The notes under the pieces: model-generated | What the model was told of the DNA's origin: nothing | The model's database searches: none | The model's input: the letters and a program-made list of their open reading frames with translations, nothing else | Shown: positions 1 through 5,269 of the stretch, piece after piece | Position numbering within the stretch: the stretch's first letter is position 1 | Layout of the letters: every line of letters starts with the position of its first letter | Program-made: the position numbers and the translations under genes | DNA from: Lacrimispora celerecrescens | GTDB taxonomy: Bacteria > Bacillota > Clostridia > Lachnospirales > Lachnospiraceae | Assembly: GCF_000732605.1 (NCBI RefSeq) | Contig: NZ_JPME01000044.1 | Coordinates: 1-39,933, forward strand | Direction: 5' to 3' | Length of the DNA: 39,933 bases

Positions 1-2
1 TC

Positions 3-369
3 GACACAATAAATATGTTAATCAAAAATCATAAAAAAAAGCCTTCAGACCGATGCAATATTGCACTCAGATCAAGGCTGCCATTATACAAGTATTTCGT
101 TCAGACAGCTACTGAAAGATAAAGAACTAAGACAGTCAATGTCCAGACGTGGTAACTGCTGGGATAATGCACCACAGGAATCTTTTTTCGGACATATGAA
201 AGACGAAATCCATCTTGTCAGATGTACTACTTATGAAGAACTTTGTACAGAAATCAATGATTACATGGATTATTACAACAACGAGCGTTATCAATGGGAA
301 CTGGCAAAGCTTTCTCCTAACCAATATGCAGAATATTTGAGAACAGGTTATTATCCTATTAAGGTATAG
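3..369 (+). pseudogene. IS3-family transposase (OrfB) C-terminal fragment, frameshifted
   Basis: This is the C-terminal part of an IS3/IS150-type DDE integrase. It contains HSDQG with the second catalytic Asp and, 35 residues further on, the catalytic Glu in DNAPQESFFG, followed by the usual YYNNERYQWELAKLSP tail. The N-terminal half lies outside the window. Upstream of a run of eight A's (33-40) the transposase-like reading DTINMLIKNH is in frame 3. Downstream it continues in frame 1, and frame 1 has stops at 10 and 19. A one-base slip in the A run therefore breaks the gene (or is a sequencing error). The slip lies inside the catalytic domain, not at the orfA/orfB junction where IS3 elements normally frameshift, so I read it as damage. 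Confidence 0.8.
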
Positions 370-371
370 CA

Positions 372-408
372 AAAGCGTCACAACTACAATTACTAGCTGT
401 GACGCTTT
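372..408 (+). terminator. Hairpin after the IS3 transposase
   Basis: A perfect 11-bp inverted repeat (AAAGCGTCACA / TGTGACGCTTT) with a 15-nt loop starts 3 bases after the transposase stop. A T-rich run follows at about 416-424. It is a plausible rho-independent terminator of the element. Confidence 0.55.
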
Positions 409-661
409 ATCATACTCTTTTTTTTAAATGCCCTTGACATGGGGACCAATTTAGAATGGACTATACGCTTTTTATTAGTAAGCGCCAACTAAGCGGTTAC
501 CTTTTTACCACCACTGCAAACTACTGTTAATGGGAAACTTCGTGTTGCGTAAGGTAAACTAACTCCCACCCAATAAATTTATCTATACAATACTACGTTC
601 TTGTAGAAATATAGAAAATTATATTATATAATTAAAGTATTACTTATAATAGGGGTATGGG
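409..661. other. IS3 right end and AT-rich leader of the DUF3800 gene
   Basis: The stretch at about 432-455 (CCCTTGACATGGGGACCAA) resembles the terminal inverted repeat of IS3-group elements, so the element probably ends near 455. The rest has no gene. A TATAAT box at 645-650 and an AGGGGT ribosome binding site at 650-655 lie directly before the DUF3800 start, but I find no convincing -35 box. Confidence 0.4.
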
Positions 662-1456
662 ATGAAAAAATATACATTATATTTAGATGAAAGCGAGACA
701 CACAAGTATAATCCAGTTATTCGTAAAAATGATAACTTTCATTTTTGTATGGCTGGAGTTATTGTCGCAGTAGATGATTATAAAGATTTAGAAGACAGTG
801 TTAATAATTTAAAGAGAACCATTTGGAGTGAAACTCCGAACCCAGAAAAAATAATTCTTCATCAAATGAGATTGATTGATGCAGAAAGGGGTAGATTAGA
901 TTCTACAAGATATCCTGAATATGTAAAATTTAATAAAAAAGAAGAACGGAAAAAATTTTATAATGAATTAAAAAATGTCTTTGATAAAAATTCATTGTCT
1001 ATTGTAGGTAGTTGTATTAATGAAGATAATTTAAAGAAGTATTATTGGATAACAGATAAAAATAAACAAGATCAATACTTAGTTGCGATGCAGTTATTAT
1101 TGGAGAATTATTGTCATTTTTTATGTGCAAATAACGCAATTGGTAACATAATATATGAGTTTAGAGAACTGAAAGGAAATGAGAAATTAAGAGATAAGTA
1201 TTACCATATGAAACTAATGGGTTCTATGTATATGACGAAGAATACCGCAGAAAAGAGGCTGCTGGGGATTGACTTTGTAGACAAAGAGGATAATGAGATT
1301 GGGTTACAGATCGCGGATTTTGTACCAAATTCATTTGCAAGAGACCACGCCGGTATAGCGCAGGCAAAACCGAACATATTTAGTACATTAAAATATAATA
1401 TGTATGATGGGGTTATGGGGAATTCAGAAAGATTTGGAATAAAATATATGCCATAG
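662..1456 (+). CDS. DUF3800 domain protein
   Basis: This 264-residue protein has the two hallmarks of DUF3800. The N-terminal beta-strand motif LYLDES (residues 6-11) carries the conserved Asp-Glu, and a C-terminal IGLQIADFV motif carries a second conserved Asp. The spacing suits an RNase H-like fold, which is what has been suggested for the family. The biochemical role of DUF3800 is not established; members are common in mobile and defence-related neighbourhoods. The gene is much richer in AT than the downstream PTS genes and sits beside an IS remnant, so I infer recent transfer. It has its own ribosome binding site (AGGGGT). A structured-RNA candidate begins about 45 nt after its stop. Confidence 0.78.
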   Translation: MKKYTLYLDESETHKYNPVIRKNDNFHFCMAGVIVAVDDYKDLEDSVNNLKRTIWSETPNPEKIILHQMRLIDAERGRLDSTRYPEYVKFNKKEERKKFYNELKNVFDKNSLSIVGSCINEDNLKKYYWITDKNKQDQYLVAMQLLLENYCHFLCANNAIGNIIYEFRELKGNEKLRDKYYHMKLMGSMYMTKNTAEKRLLGIDFVDKEDNEIGLQIADFVPNSFARDHAGIAQAKPNIFSTLKYNMYDGVMGNSERFGIKYMP

Positions 1457-1470
1457 TATTAAAATGCATA

Positions 1471-1499
1471 TTGACAAACTATTAGTCATATAATAAGAT
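1471..1499 (+). promoter_or_regulatory. Sigma-A promoter for the RNA downstream of DUF3800
   Basis: TTGACA (1471-1476), a 17-bp spacer and TAAGAT (1494-1499). A second, overlapping TATAAT at 1489 is too close to this -35 box to pair with it. Transcription would start near 1506, at the base of the closing stem of the RNA. Confidence 0.5.
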
Positions 1500-1501
1500 A
1501 T

Positions 1502-1645
1502 ATATAGGGATTGGGAGATACCAATTACGTTTCTATGCTTTGCATAGTTGATAATCATTGGAGTGGTCAAAAGCCAAGTATGGAGAAAAATACTATCGGC
1601 AACGAACCCTATATCAAAAAAGCTACCGTGTTAGGTGGCTTTTTT
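1502..1645 (+). ncRNA. Structured RNA candidate next to DUF3800
   Basis: About 145 nt with nested pairing and no reading frame. An 8-bp closing stem (ATATAGGG 1502-1509 / CCCTATAT 1607-1614) surrounds three hairpins: ATTGG/CCAAT (1510-1514/1521-1525), CTATGC/GCATAG (1533-1538/1542-1547) and a two-part stem GCC...GGC plus AGTAT/ATACT (1573-1600). A strong terminator follows at 1616-1645 (12 bp with one G-U, ending in six T's). An extra ATTGG at 1557-1561 could pair with the first CCAAT, or its TTGG with CCAA at 1574-1577, suggesting a pseudoknot or alternative fold. From memory, comparative surveys have named several structured RNA classes after the DUF3800 genes they adjoin. I cannot say which class, if any, this belongs to. 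It could instead be the 3' UTR of the DUF3800 mRNA. Confidence 0.55.
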
Positions 1646-1739
1646 GTGTTTAAACATACCATGGTTGAACATTTGAATATATAAATTGGAGAATTAGATG
1701 CTGTATGGAAAACTTTTGTAATTTAGTTCTCAATTGTTG

Positions 1740-1768
1740 CAAAAAGTCGGCAAGATGTCGGCTTTTTT
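1740..1768 (+). terminator. Hairpin terminator upstream of the HPr-like gene
   Basis: A 12-bp stem (AAAAAGTCGGCA with TGTCGGCTTTTT, two G-U pairs) with a 3-nt loop and a T run. Seen as DNA the GTCGGC halves look like a direct repeat, but as RNA they pair. A TATAAT follows at 1770-1775 and may be the -10 box for the HPr-like gene. Confidence 0.55.
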
Positions 1769-1817
1769 GGTATAATAAAATCAGAAGTGTTTTTTATGAA
1801 TGGGAAAGGGTGATGAG

Positions 1818-2075
1818 ATGATTAGTTATGAATACATAGTATCGGACAAACAGGGGCTTCACGCCATCAATTCCTTGAGGCTGAGCAAGGCGGCATCGAA
1901 ATATGAGAGCCGTATAACCTTAAAAAGCAGAAAAGGCACAGCGGACTGTAAGAATGTACTTTCACTCATAGGTCTGGGAGCACGTTATGGTGAATGTCTG
2001 GAGTTTCTTGTAGATGGGCAGGATGAAAACAGTGCAATCGAATTCCTTAAGGAGTTTCTTCCAGCCAATTTATAA
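1818..2075 (+). CDS. HPr-like phosphocarrier paralogue lacking Arg17, Pro18 and Ser46
   Basis: HPr carries phosphate from Enzyme I to PTS EIIA domains. The 85-residue product has HPr length and aligns along its whole length. His15 is present in GLHA, Gly54 in LGLGA, and the KYES segment aligns. Residues that are near-invariant in canonical HPr differ: HARP is HAIN (Arg17 and Pro18 lost), and the KS dipeptide holding the HPr-kinase target Ser46 is KN. I chose the ATG at 1818 because AAAGGG lies 8 nt before it; an upstream ATG at 1800 would add six residues and has no site. The gene sits directly before the first operator of the PTS/MupG locus, which suggests a dedicated or regulatory phosphocarrier. 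The family call is firm; the role is inferred. Confidence 0.72.
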   Translation: MISYEYIVSDKQGLHAINSLRLSKAASKYESRITLKSRKGTADCKNVLSLIGLGARYGECLEFLVDGQDENSAIEFLKEFLPANL

Positions 2076-2088
2076 CAGAAACAAGATA

Positions 2089-2107
2089 TTTCCTAGCAAT
2101 TAGGAAA
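2089..2107. promoter_or_regulatory. Operator palindrome 1 of the PTS locus
   Basis: TTTCCTA-N5-TAGGAAA, a perfect 7-5-7 palindrome. The same arms and spacing recur at 5271-5289. Its centre is 42 bp before the proposed -10 box (2140), against 41 bp at the second site. It is probably the binding site of the PRD activator encoded at 3350. Confidence 0.65.
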
Positions 2108-2117
2108 CCGATTTACC

Positions 2118-2145
2118 TTCAAACTCTTTCTTGACGGACTATAGT
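2118..2145 (+). promoter_or_regulatory. Promoter of the mupG-activator unit
   Basis: TTCAAA (2118-2123), 16-bp spacer, TATAGT (2140-2145). The weak -35, 10 bp downstream of the operator palindrome, fits an activator-dependent promoter. Confidence 0.4.
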
Positions 2146-2157
2146 TAATGTCAAAGG

Positions 2158-2185
2158 ACCATCCGGTACGTAAGTACCGGATGGT
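2158..2185 (+). promoter_or_regulatory. Perfect 12-bp hairpin in the mupG leader
   Basis: ACCATCCGGTAC / GTACCGGATGGT separated by GTAA. It lies just after the likely transcription start and ends about 10 nt before the GAGAGGGG ribosome binding site. There is no T run, so it is not a standard terminator. It may stabilise the 5' end of the mRNA or be a protein or RNA binding element. Confidence 0.5.
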
Positions 2186-2210
2186 TAAATATAAGAGAGG
2201 GGTTAATCAT

Positions 2211-3302
2211 ATGGCAAAATTGGGTATTTCCGTTTATCCGGAACATTCTACGGAAGAAAGGGACATAGAGTATATCAGAAAGGCAGGGAGCTTGGGGTAT
2301 AAGAGAATCTTTACCTGTCTCTTAAGTGTGGAGGAGAGCAGGGAAGAGGTAATCTGCCGTTTTCGGAGGCTGGCGGATGAAGCCCACGCTTGCGGTATGG
2401 AAATCATACCGGATGTGAGCCCTGCCGTATTTTCCCGAATGGGAATCTCCTACGAGGACTTATCCGTATTTCAGGAAATGCATGTGGATGGCATCCGTCT
2501 GGACGAAGGCTTTGACGGCATGAAAGAAAGCCTTATGACTTACAATCCTCAGGGGCTTAAGATAGAGCTCAATGCCAGCACCAGGCTGGCGTATGTGGAG
2601 AATGTCATAGACCACCACCCGGATCGTGATAAACTGATTACCTGCCACAATTTTTATCCGCAGAAGTATACGGGATTAAGCCTGAAACAATTTCATACCT
2701 GTAATGATAAGATGAAATCACTTGGGCTTAAGGTTGCGGCTTTTGTGTCCAGCAACGCGCCCGGAGCATACGGTCCATGGCCCGTAAACGAGGGGCTGTG
2801 TACTCTGGAGATGCACCGTGGTCTTCCCATTGATTTCCAGGTGCGCCATCTGCTTGCTACCGGTATGGTTGATGATGTGCTTATCGCCAATGCTTATGCG
2901 ACTGATGAGGAACTGGAGGCTTGCGCCGCCATCAATACCAGCATCCTGACCTTTGGTATCCATCTGGAGAAAGAACTGACTCAGACCGAGAGCCAGATCC
3001 TGGATTATGAACTCCGTCATGTAGTAAGAGGTGATTTAAACGACTATATGATCCGTTCCTCCGGCCCCAGAGTCACGTTTGCGGACCGGTCTATCCCGGC
3101 TGCCAATACCAGAGATTTAAAGCCAGGTGATGTGGTCATCTTAAATGACGGTTATCCCAAATATAAGGGAGAACTTCAAATCGTCACCAAAGACATGCCA
3201 AATGATGGCCGCAAGAATGTGATCGGTCATATTCCTGAGCATGAACACGTTCTGCTGGATTACGCAGAACCATGGACGGTGTTCGCATTCTGCATCCTCT
3301 AA
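2211..3302 (+). CDS. mupG: MupG-type 6-phospho-glycosidase (DUF871)
   Basis: The 363-residue protein belongs to the DUF871 family, whose characterised member MupG is a cytoplasmic 6-phospho-N-acetylmuramidase that splits phosphorylated MurNAc-GlcNAc taken up by a PTS. The family start KLGISVYPEHS is clear, followed by a TIM-barrel-like region with ISMG-type helices and an acidic strand HVDGIRLDEGFDG. A smaller C-terminal domain begins around residue 270 (VVRGDLNDYMIRSS, then LKPGDVVILNDGYPKYKGELQIV). I chose the ATG at 2211 for its GAGAGGGG site; the frame stays open 21 codons upstream, but those codons encode the leader hairpin. It is followed after 47 bp by the PRD activator and lies in the locus with PTS genes. 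The substrate here could differ from MurNAc-6P-GlcNAc. Confidence 0.8.
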   Translation: MAKLGISVYPEHSTEERDIEYIRKAGSLGYKRIFTCLLSVEESREEVICRFRRLADEAHACGMEIIPDVSPAVFSRMGISYEDLSVFQEMHVDGIRLDEGFDGMKESLMTYNPQGLKIELNASTRLAYVENVIDHHPDRDKLITCHNFYPQKYTGLSLKQFHTCNDKMKSLGLKVAAFVSSNAPGAYGPWPVNEGLCTLEMHRGLPIDFQVRHLLATGMVDDVLIANAYATDEELEACAAINTSILTFGIHLEKELTQTESQILDYELRHVVRGDLNDYMIRSSGPRVTFADRSIPAANTRDLKPGDVVILNDGYPKYKGELQIVTKDMPNDGRKNVIGHIPEHEHVLLDYAEPWTVFAFCIL

Positions 3303-3349
3303 ACAGAGGATTTTACGGAAGAAGACAGCAAGAAAGGGAGTATTTAGAC

Positions 3350-5269
3350 ATGCAGAATCAAAGACAGGAACAGCTGCTTGCCATATTATCAGAACTGGGA
3401 GACTGGATAACCAGCCGTCGCCTGGCTGTTCTTCTGCAGGTGTCGGATCGTACCATACGCTCCGATGTAGAATCCATCAACAGACACATGACCCCGCCTC
3501 CCATAGAGTCTAATGTGAGGCGGGGCTACCGCATTTGTGAAAAGGCCAGTCTATCGCCTTTGCCGCCAAAAGAATCCAGGGGGACGGATATTCCACAGAC
3601 TCCAGGTGCCCGCTGCGCATACATGATTCAAAAGCTGTTATTCGAGGTGAAGGAACTGAACCTTACCCTTCTCCAGAGCCAGATCTATGTAAGCGGTGCC
3701 TCCATTGACAATGACTTAAAGCGTATACGAAAGATGCTGGAACCTTATCCTGGTTTAAAGCTGGTCCGCAATAAGGAATGCATATCCTTAAAGGGGGATG
3801 AGGCTGGAAAACGGCGGTTTTACAGGGATTTACTGATGGCTGAGGTGCAGGAGAATTTTCTAAACTTAAATATGCTGGCTAATCTATATAAAAGCTTCAA
3901 CTTAATTGAGGTAAAGGATATATTCGTGGATGTCTTAAAGGAATATGATTATTCCATCCATGAATCCATGTTTCCCATGCTGATCCTGCACGCCGGTACC
4001 AGCATTGAGAGGATGAATTGCGCCAACTACATCAGTATGGAAGAGGGGATGCAGGGGTTAGAGGATACCATCGAGTACCAGATATCAAAGGACTTCTTTG
4101 ACCGCATTTCCAAACGCCTGCACATAAAGATCCACGATGGAGAAGTGGGGATGTTTGCCCTGGTTGTCATGGGCAGAAAGGCCTCCAATTATACCGACGA
4201 TTACGTAAATTTCGGCGGAAGGTGGTTGAGTACCAGGAAACTGGTAGGCGAGGCCCTGGAGCAGATATACACGTTGTTTGGGCTGGATTTCCGGCAGGAT
4301 GGGGACCTTATCGCCGGTCTTAAGATGCATATTCACGGACTGGTGGAACGAGTCAGGAATCAGGTCCGGATGGAGGATGTATTTGTGGAAGAGATCAAAC
4401 GCAAATACCCTCTGGTCTTTGAGATGGGCATTTATGTGGTGGAATTTCTGGAAGAAAGGCTTAAGACTCCCGTATCCGATGCAGAGAGCTGCTACATCGC
4501 CCTTCATCTGGGAGCTGCCAGTGAGCGCATGAAAACAGAAAGAAAGTATCATGCCGTAATGATTCTGCCTCATAACCAGTCTTTTTCTGATATGTGCGTG
4601 AAGAAAATTTCCGATATGTTTCGTGAGAGGATGGAAGTGGTAAAGGTCTTTGGTTATTTTGAAGAGGAGGTAGTGTCTTCTCTGGATCCTGATCTACTGC
4701 TCAGTACATTTCCCCTGGAACATGGGTTGAACGTGGAGACCGTCTCCATTAACTTATTCGTGGATTCCGAGACGGAGTCAAGGATTCTCCAGGCCATCAA
4801 CCGGCTGGATAAGAAAGGATTCCGGCTGGAATTCTCCTCTCATATCGGCAGCTTAATCCGCAAGGAACACTATCACACAGAGGTGAATTGTACAAACCCG
4901 GAGGAAATCATCCGTATGCTGTGTTCCGGCCTGGTACAGGAGGGGGTTGTGGATCCGGAATTTACAGATGTGGTATTAAAGAGGGAGCAGATGTCCCCGA
5001 CATCCTTTGTGAATACATTTGCAATTCCCCATGCGTTCGGTGCCTTTGCCAGGAATTCCACCATTGCGGTGGCCCAGCTTAAGAATCCGGTGAAATGGGG
5101 TGTCTTTGAGGTGCGGCTGGTGATGCTGTTTGCCATAAATATAGGGGACGCCAGGATGATTAAGATCTTCTTTGACTGGATCTCCAATATCGTGAATCAG
5201 CCTGAGGAGCTGGCAAAATTGGCTGCTCCCTGCGGATATGAGGAATTCATCGACCGGATTACGGAGTGA
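3350..5269 (+). CDS. PRD-containing transcription activator (MtlR/LicR type)
   Basis: This 639-residue PTS-controlled regulator has an N-terminal DeoR/HTH_11-like helix-turn-helix (residues about 5-50, LAVLLQVSDRTIRSDVESI), a second HTH region, two PTS regulation domains in the middle with conserved histidines, an EIIB-like segment and a C-terminal EIIA type-2 domain with FAIPHA (His561). Such proteins are DNA-binding activators, not RNA antiterminators. Their activity is set by HPr- and EII-dependent phosphorylation of the PRD, EIIB and EIIA residues. The start at ATG 3350 has AAAGGGAG 9 nt upstream; an in-frame start at 3272 lies inside mupG. It sits between the two units that carry the matching palindromes, so it is the natural candidate to bind them. 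The general class is certain; the inducer is unknown. Confidence 0.82.
   Translation: MQNQRQEQLLAILSELGDWITSRRLAVLLQVSDRTIRSDVESINRHMTPPPIESNVRRGYRICEKASLSPLPPKESRGTDIPQTPGARCAYMIQKLLFEVKELNLTLLQSQIYVSGASIDNDLKRIRKMLEPYPGLKLVRNKECISLKGDEAGKRRFYRDLLMAEVQENFLNLNMLANLYKSFNLIEVKDIFVDVLKEYDYSIHESMFPMLILHAGTSIERMNCANYISMEEGMQGLEDTIEYQISKDFFDRISKRLHIKIHDGEVGMFALVVMGRKASNYTDDYVNFGGRWLSTRKLVGEALEQIYTLFGLDFRQDGDLIAGLKMHIHGLVERVRNQVRMEDVFVEEIKRKYPLVFEMGIYVVEFLEERLKTPVSDAESCYIALHLGAASERMKTERKYHAVMILPHNQSFSDMCVKKISDMFRERMEVVKVFGYFEEEVVSSLDPDLLLSTFPLEHGLNVETVSINLFVDSETESRILQAINRLDKKGFRLEFSSHIGSLIRKEHYHTEVNCTNPEEIIRMLCSGLVQEGVVDPEFTDVVLKREQMSPTSFVNTFAIPHAFGAFARNSTIAVAQLKNPVKWGVFEVRLVMLFAINIGDARMIKIFFDWISNIVNQPEELAKLAAPCGYEEFIDRITE

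Follow-up and report, generated by a model that had tools for sequence, protein, structure and literature searches.

In a 39,933-nucleotide stretch of Lacrimispora celerecrescens DNA (contig NZ_JPME01000044.1 of assembly GCF_000732605.1; hereafter the window), a gene for a DUF3800 protein is followed by a separate unit encoding a structured RNA of about 110 nt. Comparison with homologous loci strongly supports the view that the two form a protein–RNA module: the RNA occupies a conserved place beside the gene, has its own predicted promoter and terminator, shows covariation and behaves as a separable unit. The RNA is kept beside broken DUF3800 genes and is found alone in a phage, which suggests that it restrains the protein. 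We put at about even the chance that the module is toxin–antitoxin-like or acts in abortive infection, with an RNase H2-fold nuclease neutralised by its own RNA and the phage copy serving as a decoy.

The first-pass annotation of this DNA had proposed a DUF3800 gene, a promoter directly past its stop codon, an RNA with three inner arms enclosed by an 8-bp stem, and a rho-independent terminator, all of which held up (coordinates are collected in the table below). PF12686 was the sole Pfam domain found in the window protein (profile search, E up to 0.01). Taken by itself the RNA promoter is unremarkable, with 12 promoter-like sites in positions 400–2300 against 9.2 expected. Its place is conserved: a promoter matching at least 10 of 12 consensus positions lies within 130 nt past the stop in 55 of 62 DUF3800 loci, compared with 23 of 401 control open reading frames (stop-to-stop frames of at least 200 aa in the same loci). 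The 62 loci include the window and three duplicate pairs, and three further loci came without the flank. Seven loci have no such promoter past the stop, namely L010 (half a gene), L021, L027, L043, L062 (9 of 12), L284 and L285, where L-numbers denote individual loci and G-numbers genomes or virus records. The consensus scan that found the RNA promoter listed no terminator, and the terminator was called from folding; the hairpin letters ACCG..AGGTG are common to 12 bacterial group-A loci, the window included (compared by eye). Folding z-scores were −4.86 for 1499–1660 and −3.76 for the core alone. The single-sequence minimum-energy fold gives the same P1 and terminator, with an interior pairing different from that of the comparative structure. 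At its base the core carries the conserved GGGAUUGGGAG and CGAACCC, and the strands there, 1510–1519 and 1600–1609, are the most conserved parts of the RNA (mean entropy 0.31–0.32 bits).

The RNA had been staked at first pass on covariation in the 3′ flanks of homologous DUF3800 genes and on conservation of 1502–1614 beside them, and both were found. Among the 3′ flanks of 50 homologous loci, the closest show a promoter, AGGGATTGGGAG, three arms, CGAACCCT and a terminator, and thus carry the RNA. Two covariance models of it, R1 and R2, were used; R1 was built from seven sequences and then found further RNAs. Thirteen distinct RNAs, including that of the phage described below, were aligned by fitting to the structure, and the rows of L054 and L061 were judged chance and removed before the clean count. 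In this alignment 96.9% of cells were paired, 19 of 24 pairs had changed on both sides, and there were 57 double-change cells; none of 500 shuffles did as well, and versions of the structure slid along the alignment paired at 20–42%. In a plain MAFFT alignment of seven close sequences, 9 of the 24 pairs showed double changes, a number that none of 500 shuffles equalled; additional pair types were fewer there than chance would give (496 of 500 shuffles as high). RNAalifold, run on 14 sequences with no structure supplied, recovered P1, P2 and P3, missed P2b and P4, and added a short inner extension of P1, with double changes in 14 of its 22 pairs. Covariation thus supports the RNA structure.

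In distant clades the interior of the RNA differs, and the base motif GG-A-UUG/CRA-A-CY is often kept: a script found it in 23 of 45 loci against 1.75 expected in shuffles, with three of the 23 (L008, L045 and L048) being doubtful picks of the 3′ strand. RNAs of other groups were not reached by R2, except for weak matches at L021 and L035. At L021 the order is reversed, the putative RNA unit (promoter, AGGATTGGGAGG, a 9-bp P1 and a terminator-looking hairpin) lying upstream of an intact DUF3800 gene (53.9 bits). Two Bacillus relatives carry, by eye, a second tandem RNA behind the first, at L016:6987 and L017:6986. At L032–L034, L036, L037, L041, L048 and L051, distant DUF3800 genes are followed by short RNAs that resemble repeated small hairpins and are unlike the window RNA. 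A second DUF3800 gene of the window's own genome lies on a different contig (L004; G000:C10, about 137–138.5 kb); after it come a promoter and a stretch that contains three repeats of GGGTGTAACCG, with a flavin mononucleotide riboswitch beyond (L004:2664–2778).

Broken DUF3800 genes lying away from contig ends were seen at nine loci, and in eight of them (L025, L035, L038, L040, L045, L048, L051 and L066) the promoter and RNA are kept. The N-terminal part is lost in L038, L040, L045, L048, L051 and L066 (for L045 the other half is L010), the open frames of L025 and L030 no longer contain the N-terminal LYIDES motif, and the frame of L035 breaks with stops. The ninth locus, L030, has lost the RNA, which is replaced by other sequence that we read by eye as an insertion sequence (IS). 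L015 and L049 sit at contig ends and were left out of this count. L038 and L066 retain every model pair, and L045 retains 20 of the 24, much like its intact relative L008 with 21; the P1 motif is kept in L025, L035 and L040. Over the 200 nt past the stop, broken loci match their intact relatives at 92.1% (L048 and L032), 74.2% (L051 and L037) and 96.5% (L025 and L020) identity. With the window protein as query at E 1e-5, the broken-copy genomes gave no further DUF3800 copy beyond two halves of one gene in G1111, a search that more distant genes would escape. L010:6001–6654 and L045:665–889 make up one DUF3800 gene over two contigs of the same metagenome-assembled genome, split at residues 206–209 with an overlap of about four residues, either because an element has inserted there or because the assembly breaks.

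Scanning IMG/VR by pattern turned up the RNA, with no DUF3800 gene found beside it, in two virus records, L088:3301–3416 (G1037, 138,604 bp) and L118:4731–4846 (8,392 bp). G1037 is a tailed phage, with a terminase large subunit (E 3e-26) and a portal protein (E 2.8e-81) both 4–8 kb from the RNA, and it gave no PF12686 match, though the virus record may be a fragment. The core of the phage RNA is 88% identical to that of L038, while both flanks are at chance identity. All 24 pairs are kept; of the 17 differences from L038, seven fall in paired columns, and three pairs have changed on both sides. In a neutral leftover, pairing would be expected to decay along with the flanks, and the phage therefore probably benefits from the RNA. 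Since the RNA is flanked by terminators on both sides, it should be its own transcript. Of the viral pattern scans, the one with 69 stretches yielded L071 (gene present) along with L088 and L118, one with 17 stretches yielded L152 (gene present), scans of 4, 5 and 62 stretches contained no RNA of the window-RNA family, and one more pattern matched at least 120 stretches, of which the 120 listed gave only a weak match, L168 (E 0.43). The first viral filter let through only those stretches that had either a promoter-like string or a DUF3800 gene; R2, later run on all 90 (69+17+4), found only L071, L088 and L118. Two R2 matches in the 67 viral stretches of the scans of 5 and 62, L307 and L344 (E 0.03), were judged chance.

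The predicted structure of the window protein resembles RNase H2 and PIWI, and D9, E10, E166 and D219 are invariant in a 43-row alignment. The resemblance to RNase HII/H2 is distant, at 8% identity with a best Foldseek E of 0.0047 and a template-modelling score of 0.42; a sequence search of the PDB with this protein gave nothing at E up to 1. No ToxN-like chain was among the 50 structural matches listed, which excludes nothing. PADLOC returned no match for the window protein, nor for 10 neighbour proteins from seven loci. An RNase H-like nuclease had already been guessed at first pass, in agreement with this predicted fold and with passages of two papers, PMC10910872 among them. The two papers place DUF3800 proteins in some type V and VI CRISPR (clustered regularly interspaced short palindromic repeats) loci, and PMC10910872 proposes for such CRISPR-linked proteins a part in interference or CRISPR RNA (crRNA) biogenesis. 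In the passages returned by a full-text literature search, which included PMC10910872, PMC11701678, PMC12669027, PMC7657543, PMC7811196 and PMC6722718, no function of DUF3800 was reported.

These observations can be placed in one mechanism. The module would be mobile and made of two parts, the DUF3800 protein and the RNA. The protein would be a nuclease of RNase H2/PIWI-like fold that, if left free, probably does harm or arrests growth, and the RNA, made from its own promoter, would fold into a closed multi-arm structure that binds the protein and keeps it inactive. Once infection by a phage, or loss of the module, lowered the RNA, the protein would be freed, resulting in abortive infection or addiction, and a phage carrying the RNA alone would supply the antitoxin and escape. 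Binding, inhibition, nuclease activity, toxicity, the phage trigger and the decoy role are what we infer. The first-pass annotation had listed a toxin with RNA antitoxin, an RNA-guided nuclease and an RNA-processing system as possible protein–RNA modules; the module itself is strongly supported, and of the three mechanisms the toxin with its RNA antitoxin fits best because broken genes keep the RNA, the order is reversed at L021 and the phage has the RNA alone. The more specific proposal, in which a toxin of the RNase H2/PIWI fold is checked by a trans-acting structured RNA and a wild phage carries that RNA, in a version that evolved naturally, as a decoy against the defence, is offered tentatively.

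Several points weigh against the toxin–antitoxin reading. The eight-of-nine ratio is biased upward because the locus search, seeded on N- and C-terminal motifs, favours C-terminal pieces, which adjoin the RNA, and genes lost along with their RNA escape it; the broken genes may also be recent. The L021 RNA is linked to the window RNA by its letters and P1, with R2 scoring it at only 16 bits (E 0.44). The phage orphan is one lineage in two records, L088 and L118 being identical over the compared 3.7-kb stretch, and no sigma-70 promoter was listed between the two terminators, right before the phage RNA. Further orphans were not found: R2 on 90 and 67 viral stretches and R1 on the 120 listed ones gave only weak chance matches besides L088, L118 and L071, and when the L088, L066 and L022 RNAs were searched by blastn against 50,697 phage records, and the window RNA against plasmids, nothing matched. 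Finally, passages of PMC7811196 list a strain-specific DUF3800 gene in an accessory region, beside antitoxins, as essential by transposon sequencing. A toxin gene should tolerate insertion, and therefore that DUF3800 protein may act otherwise.

The main rival is a ribonucleoprotein effector, in which the RNA would be an obligate scaffold, activator or sensor of a defence nuclease and the phage copy would compete for the protein. The association and phage-orphan data fit it too, and the role proposed for CRISPR-linked DUF3800 proteins speaks for it; a mere cofactor, however, would have no need to outlive its protein, as the RNA does in eight of nine broken loci, and we regard this rival as unlikely while giving it serious weight. 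Less probable still, and in our estimate improbable, is that the activity or harm comes from the RNA, which the DUF3800 protein would control by processing or removing it. The predicted RNase H-like fold and the gene scored essential would suit such a role, but RNA and promoter persist beside broken genes in genomes where no further copy was found at E 1e-5, and the phage keeps the RNA alone. An RNA-guided nuclease like OMEGA (obligate mobile element-guided activity) or CRISPR effectors fits poorly and is very improbable: the transcript is predicted to start at P1, the terminator follows right after P1 and the base strands are the most conserved, so that a closed, conserved base leaves no variable guide end. 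That the RNA is a cis element, a 3′ untranslated region or regulator of a neighbouring gene, is hardly credible, since despite its usual position right after the DUF3800 stop it has its own promoter and terminator, lies upstream at L021, has neighbours of unrelated kinds (for example a SocA/Panacea antitoxin domain at L022:4267–5313 and a SNaCT7/NACHT-like domain at L024:7225–9048) and occurs as a phage orphan.

To our knowledge, the RNase H2/PIWI fold has not so far been known among RNA-neutralised toxins. Type III toxin–antitoxin systems use a ribonuclease of the ToxN/AbiQ-type fold, with RNA repeats upstream of the toxin. The window instead has a single RNA, with its own promoter, downstream of the gene, and its protein, with a predicted RNase H2-like fold, probably differs from ToxN. 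ToxIN together with phage pseudo-ToxI is nonetheless similar in combining a protein with a structured RNA and in having a phage with the RNA but without the protein, and the tandem RNAs seen by eye at L016 and L017 are a further likeness. Phage pseudo-ToxI is described in passages of PMC3475682 as escaping ToxIN. A second parallel is AbiF (Abi_2), a mobile toxin-like gene with a neutralising non-coding RNA: according to passages of PMC12373285, C. difficile AbiF is neutralised by the RNA RCd22 both in cis and in trans. The window protein differs in having no Abi_2 domain.

RNAs linked to DUF3800 genes are a known kind. A 2017 survey reportedly described several such motifs, including DUF3800-I and DUF3800-IX, and we know of no function given to them in the years since they were catalogued. 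Motifs named after DUF3800, as mentioned at first pass, do exist (Rfam RF02969 DUF3800-I, RF02968 DUF3800-IX and others), and the window RNA belongs to this general kind, as a covarying structured RNA of about 110 nt consistently beside DUF3800 genes. It differs in matching none of the families: the Rfam 15 covariance-model search suggested at first pass gave no family at cut-off on the window RNA, and no DUF3800 family in 1300–1900 at E up to 1 (only two sub-threshold matches outside the core, rseX and Phe_leader), in seven close relatives at E up to 5, or in 32 distant loci. DUF3800-I RNA itself was found at two loci in 79 class genomes. At L380 it lies upstream of a DUF3800 gene (41 bits) that belongs to a different branch and is too distant for tblastn at 1e-3; at L379 (G305:C130) it follows, by eye, a serpin-like gene, and no DUF3800 match turned up in the 1.7-kb piece. 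Relative to Rfam 15 and the searchable literature, three things appear to be new: the family of the window RNA, the pattern at broken genes and the orphan in the phage.

The module lies in AT-rich DNA beside an IS remnant, as had been noted at first pass, with a GC content of 28–31% across 501–1500 compared with 44–50% across 2001–5000. When 1.5 kb of flank was compared at six congener loci, five aligned with the window only from 1796–1811 onward and the sixth from 2065, so window positions 1–1795 are missing at that site in all six; the module is absent beside the same genes in five congeners. Its distribution is sporadic, at 3 of 397 family genomes (its own included) and 2 of 391 class genomes. 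R1 on the 397 family genomes returned the own genome and five matches at E 0.04–0.1, and a DNA search of 295 order genomes returned the own copy and two short partial matches. R2 on 392 order genomes gave the own genome and L305 (E 0.0014), which has no DUF3800 nearby and was judged chance. Across the whole window, Rfam 15 at gathering cut-offs found only a glycine riboswitch elsewhere (RF00504, 25945–26027, 59.1 bits). Other known RNAs share loci with DUF3800 genes: a Skipping-rope RNA (RF02924, L057:5266–5349) located some 650 nt ahead of a viral DUF3800 gene, a drum RNA (L015:2566–2669) and a Pistol ribozyme (L011:6057–6126).

Table. Features of the DUF3800–RNA locus in window coordinates
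Feature	Position	Strand	Basis and remarks
IS3-family transposase remnant, C-terminal part, at contig edge	61–369	+	NF033516, 119.6 bits (below cut-off 160); rve_2 PF13333
Possible DUF3800 gene promoter, TAGAAA-N17-TATAAT	604–632	+	consensus scan only, 10/12
DUF3800 gene	662–1456	+	264 aa; PF12686, 56.5 bits (gathering cut-off 21)
RNA promoter, TTGACA-N17-TAAGAT (TTGACA 1471–1476, TAAGAT 1494–1499)	1471–1499	+	consensus scan; begins 14 bases past DUF3800 stop
Structured RNA core, about 110 nt	1502–1614	+	models R1/R2; covariation
P1, closing stem, 8 bp	1502–1509/1607–1614	+	comparative structure
P2	1521–1525/1557–1561	+	comparative structure; capped by P2b
P2b	1533–1538/1542–1547	+	comparative structure
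P3	1564–1567/1573–1576	+	comparative structure
P4	1578–1581/1590–1593	+	comparative structure
Predicted intrinsic terminator of RNA	1615–1646	+	13-bp stem and T run, −18.3 kcal/mol

If the toxin–antitoxin reading is true, the nuclease fold common to RNase H2 and Argonaute would join the RNA-controlled toxins, and the phage decoy would be a ready inhibitor. RNA kept beside broken genes and phage RNA found alone make the question a direct one, namely whether the bacterial or the phage RNA switches the protein off, and the answer would bear on the type V and VI CRISPR loci with DUF3800 proteins.
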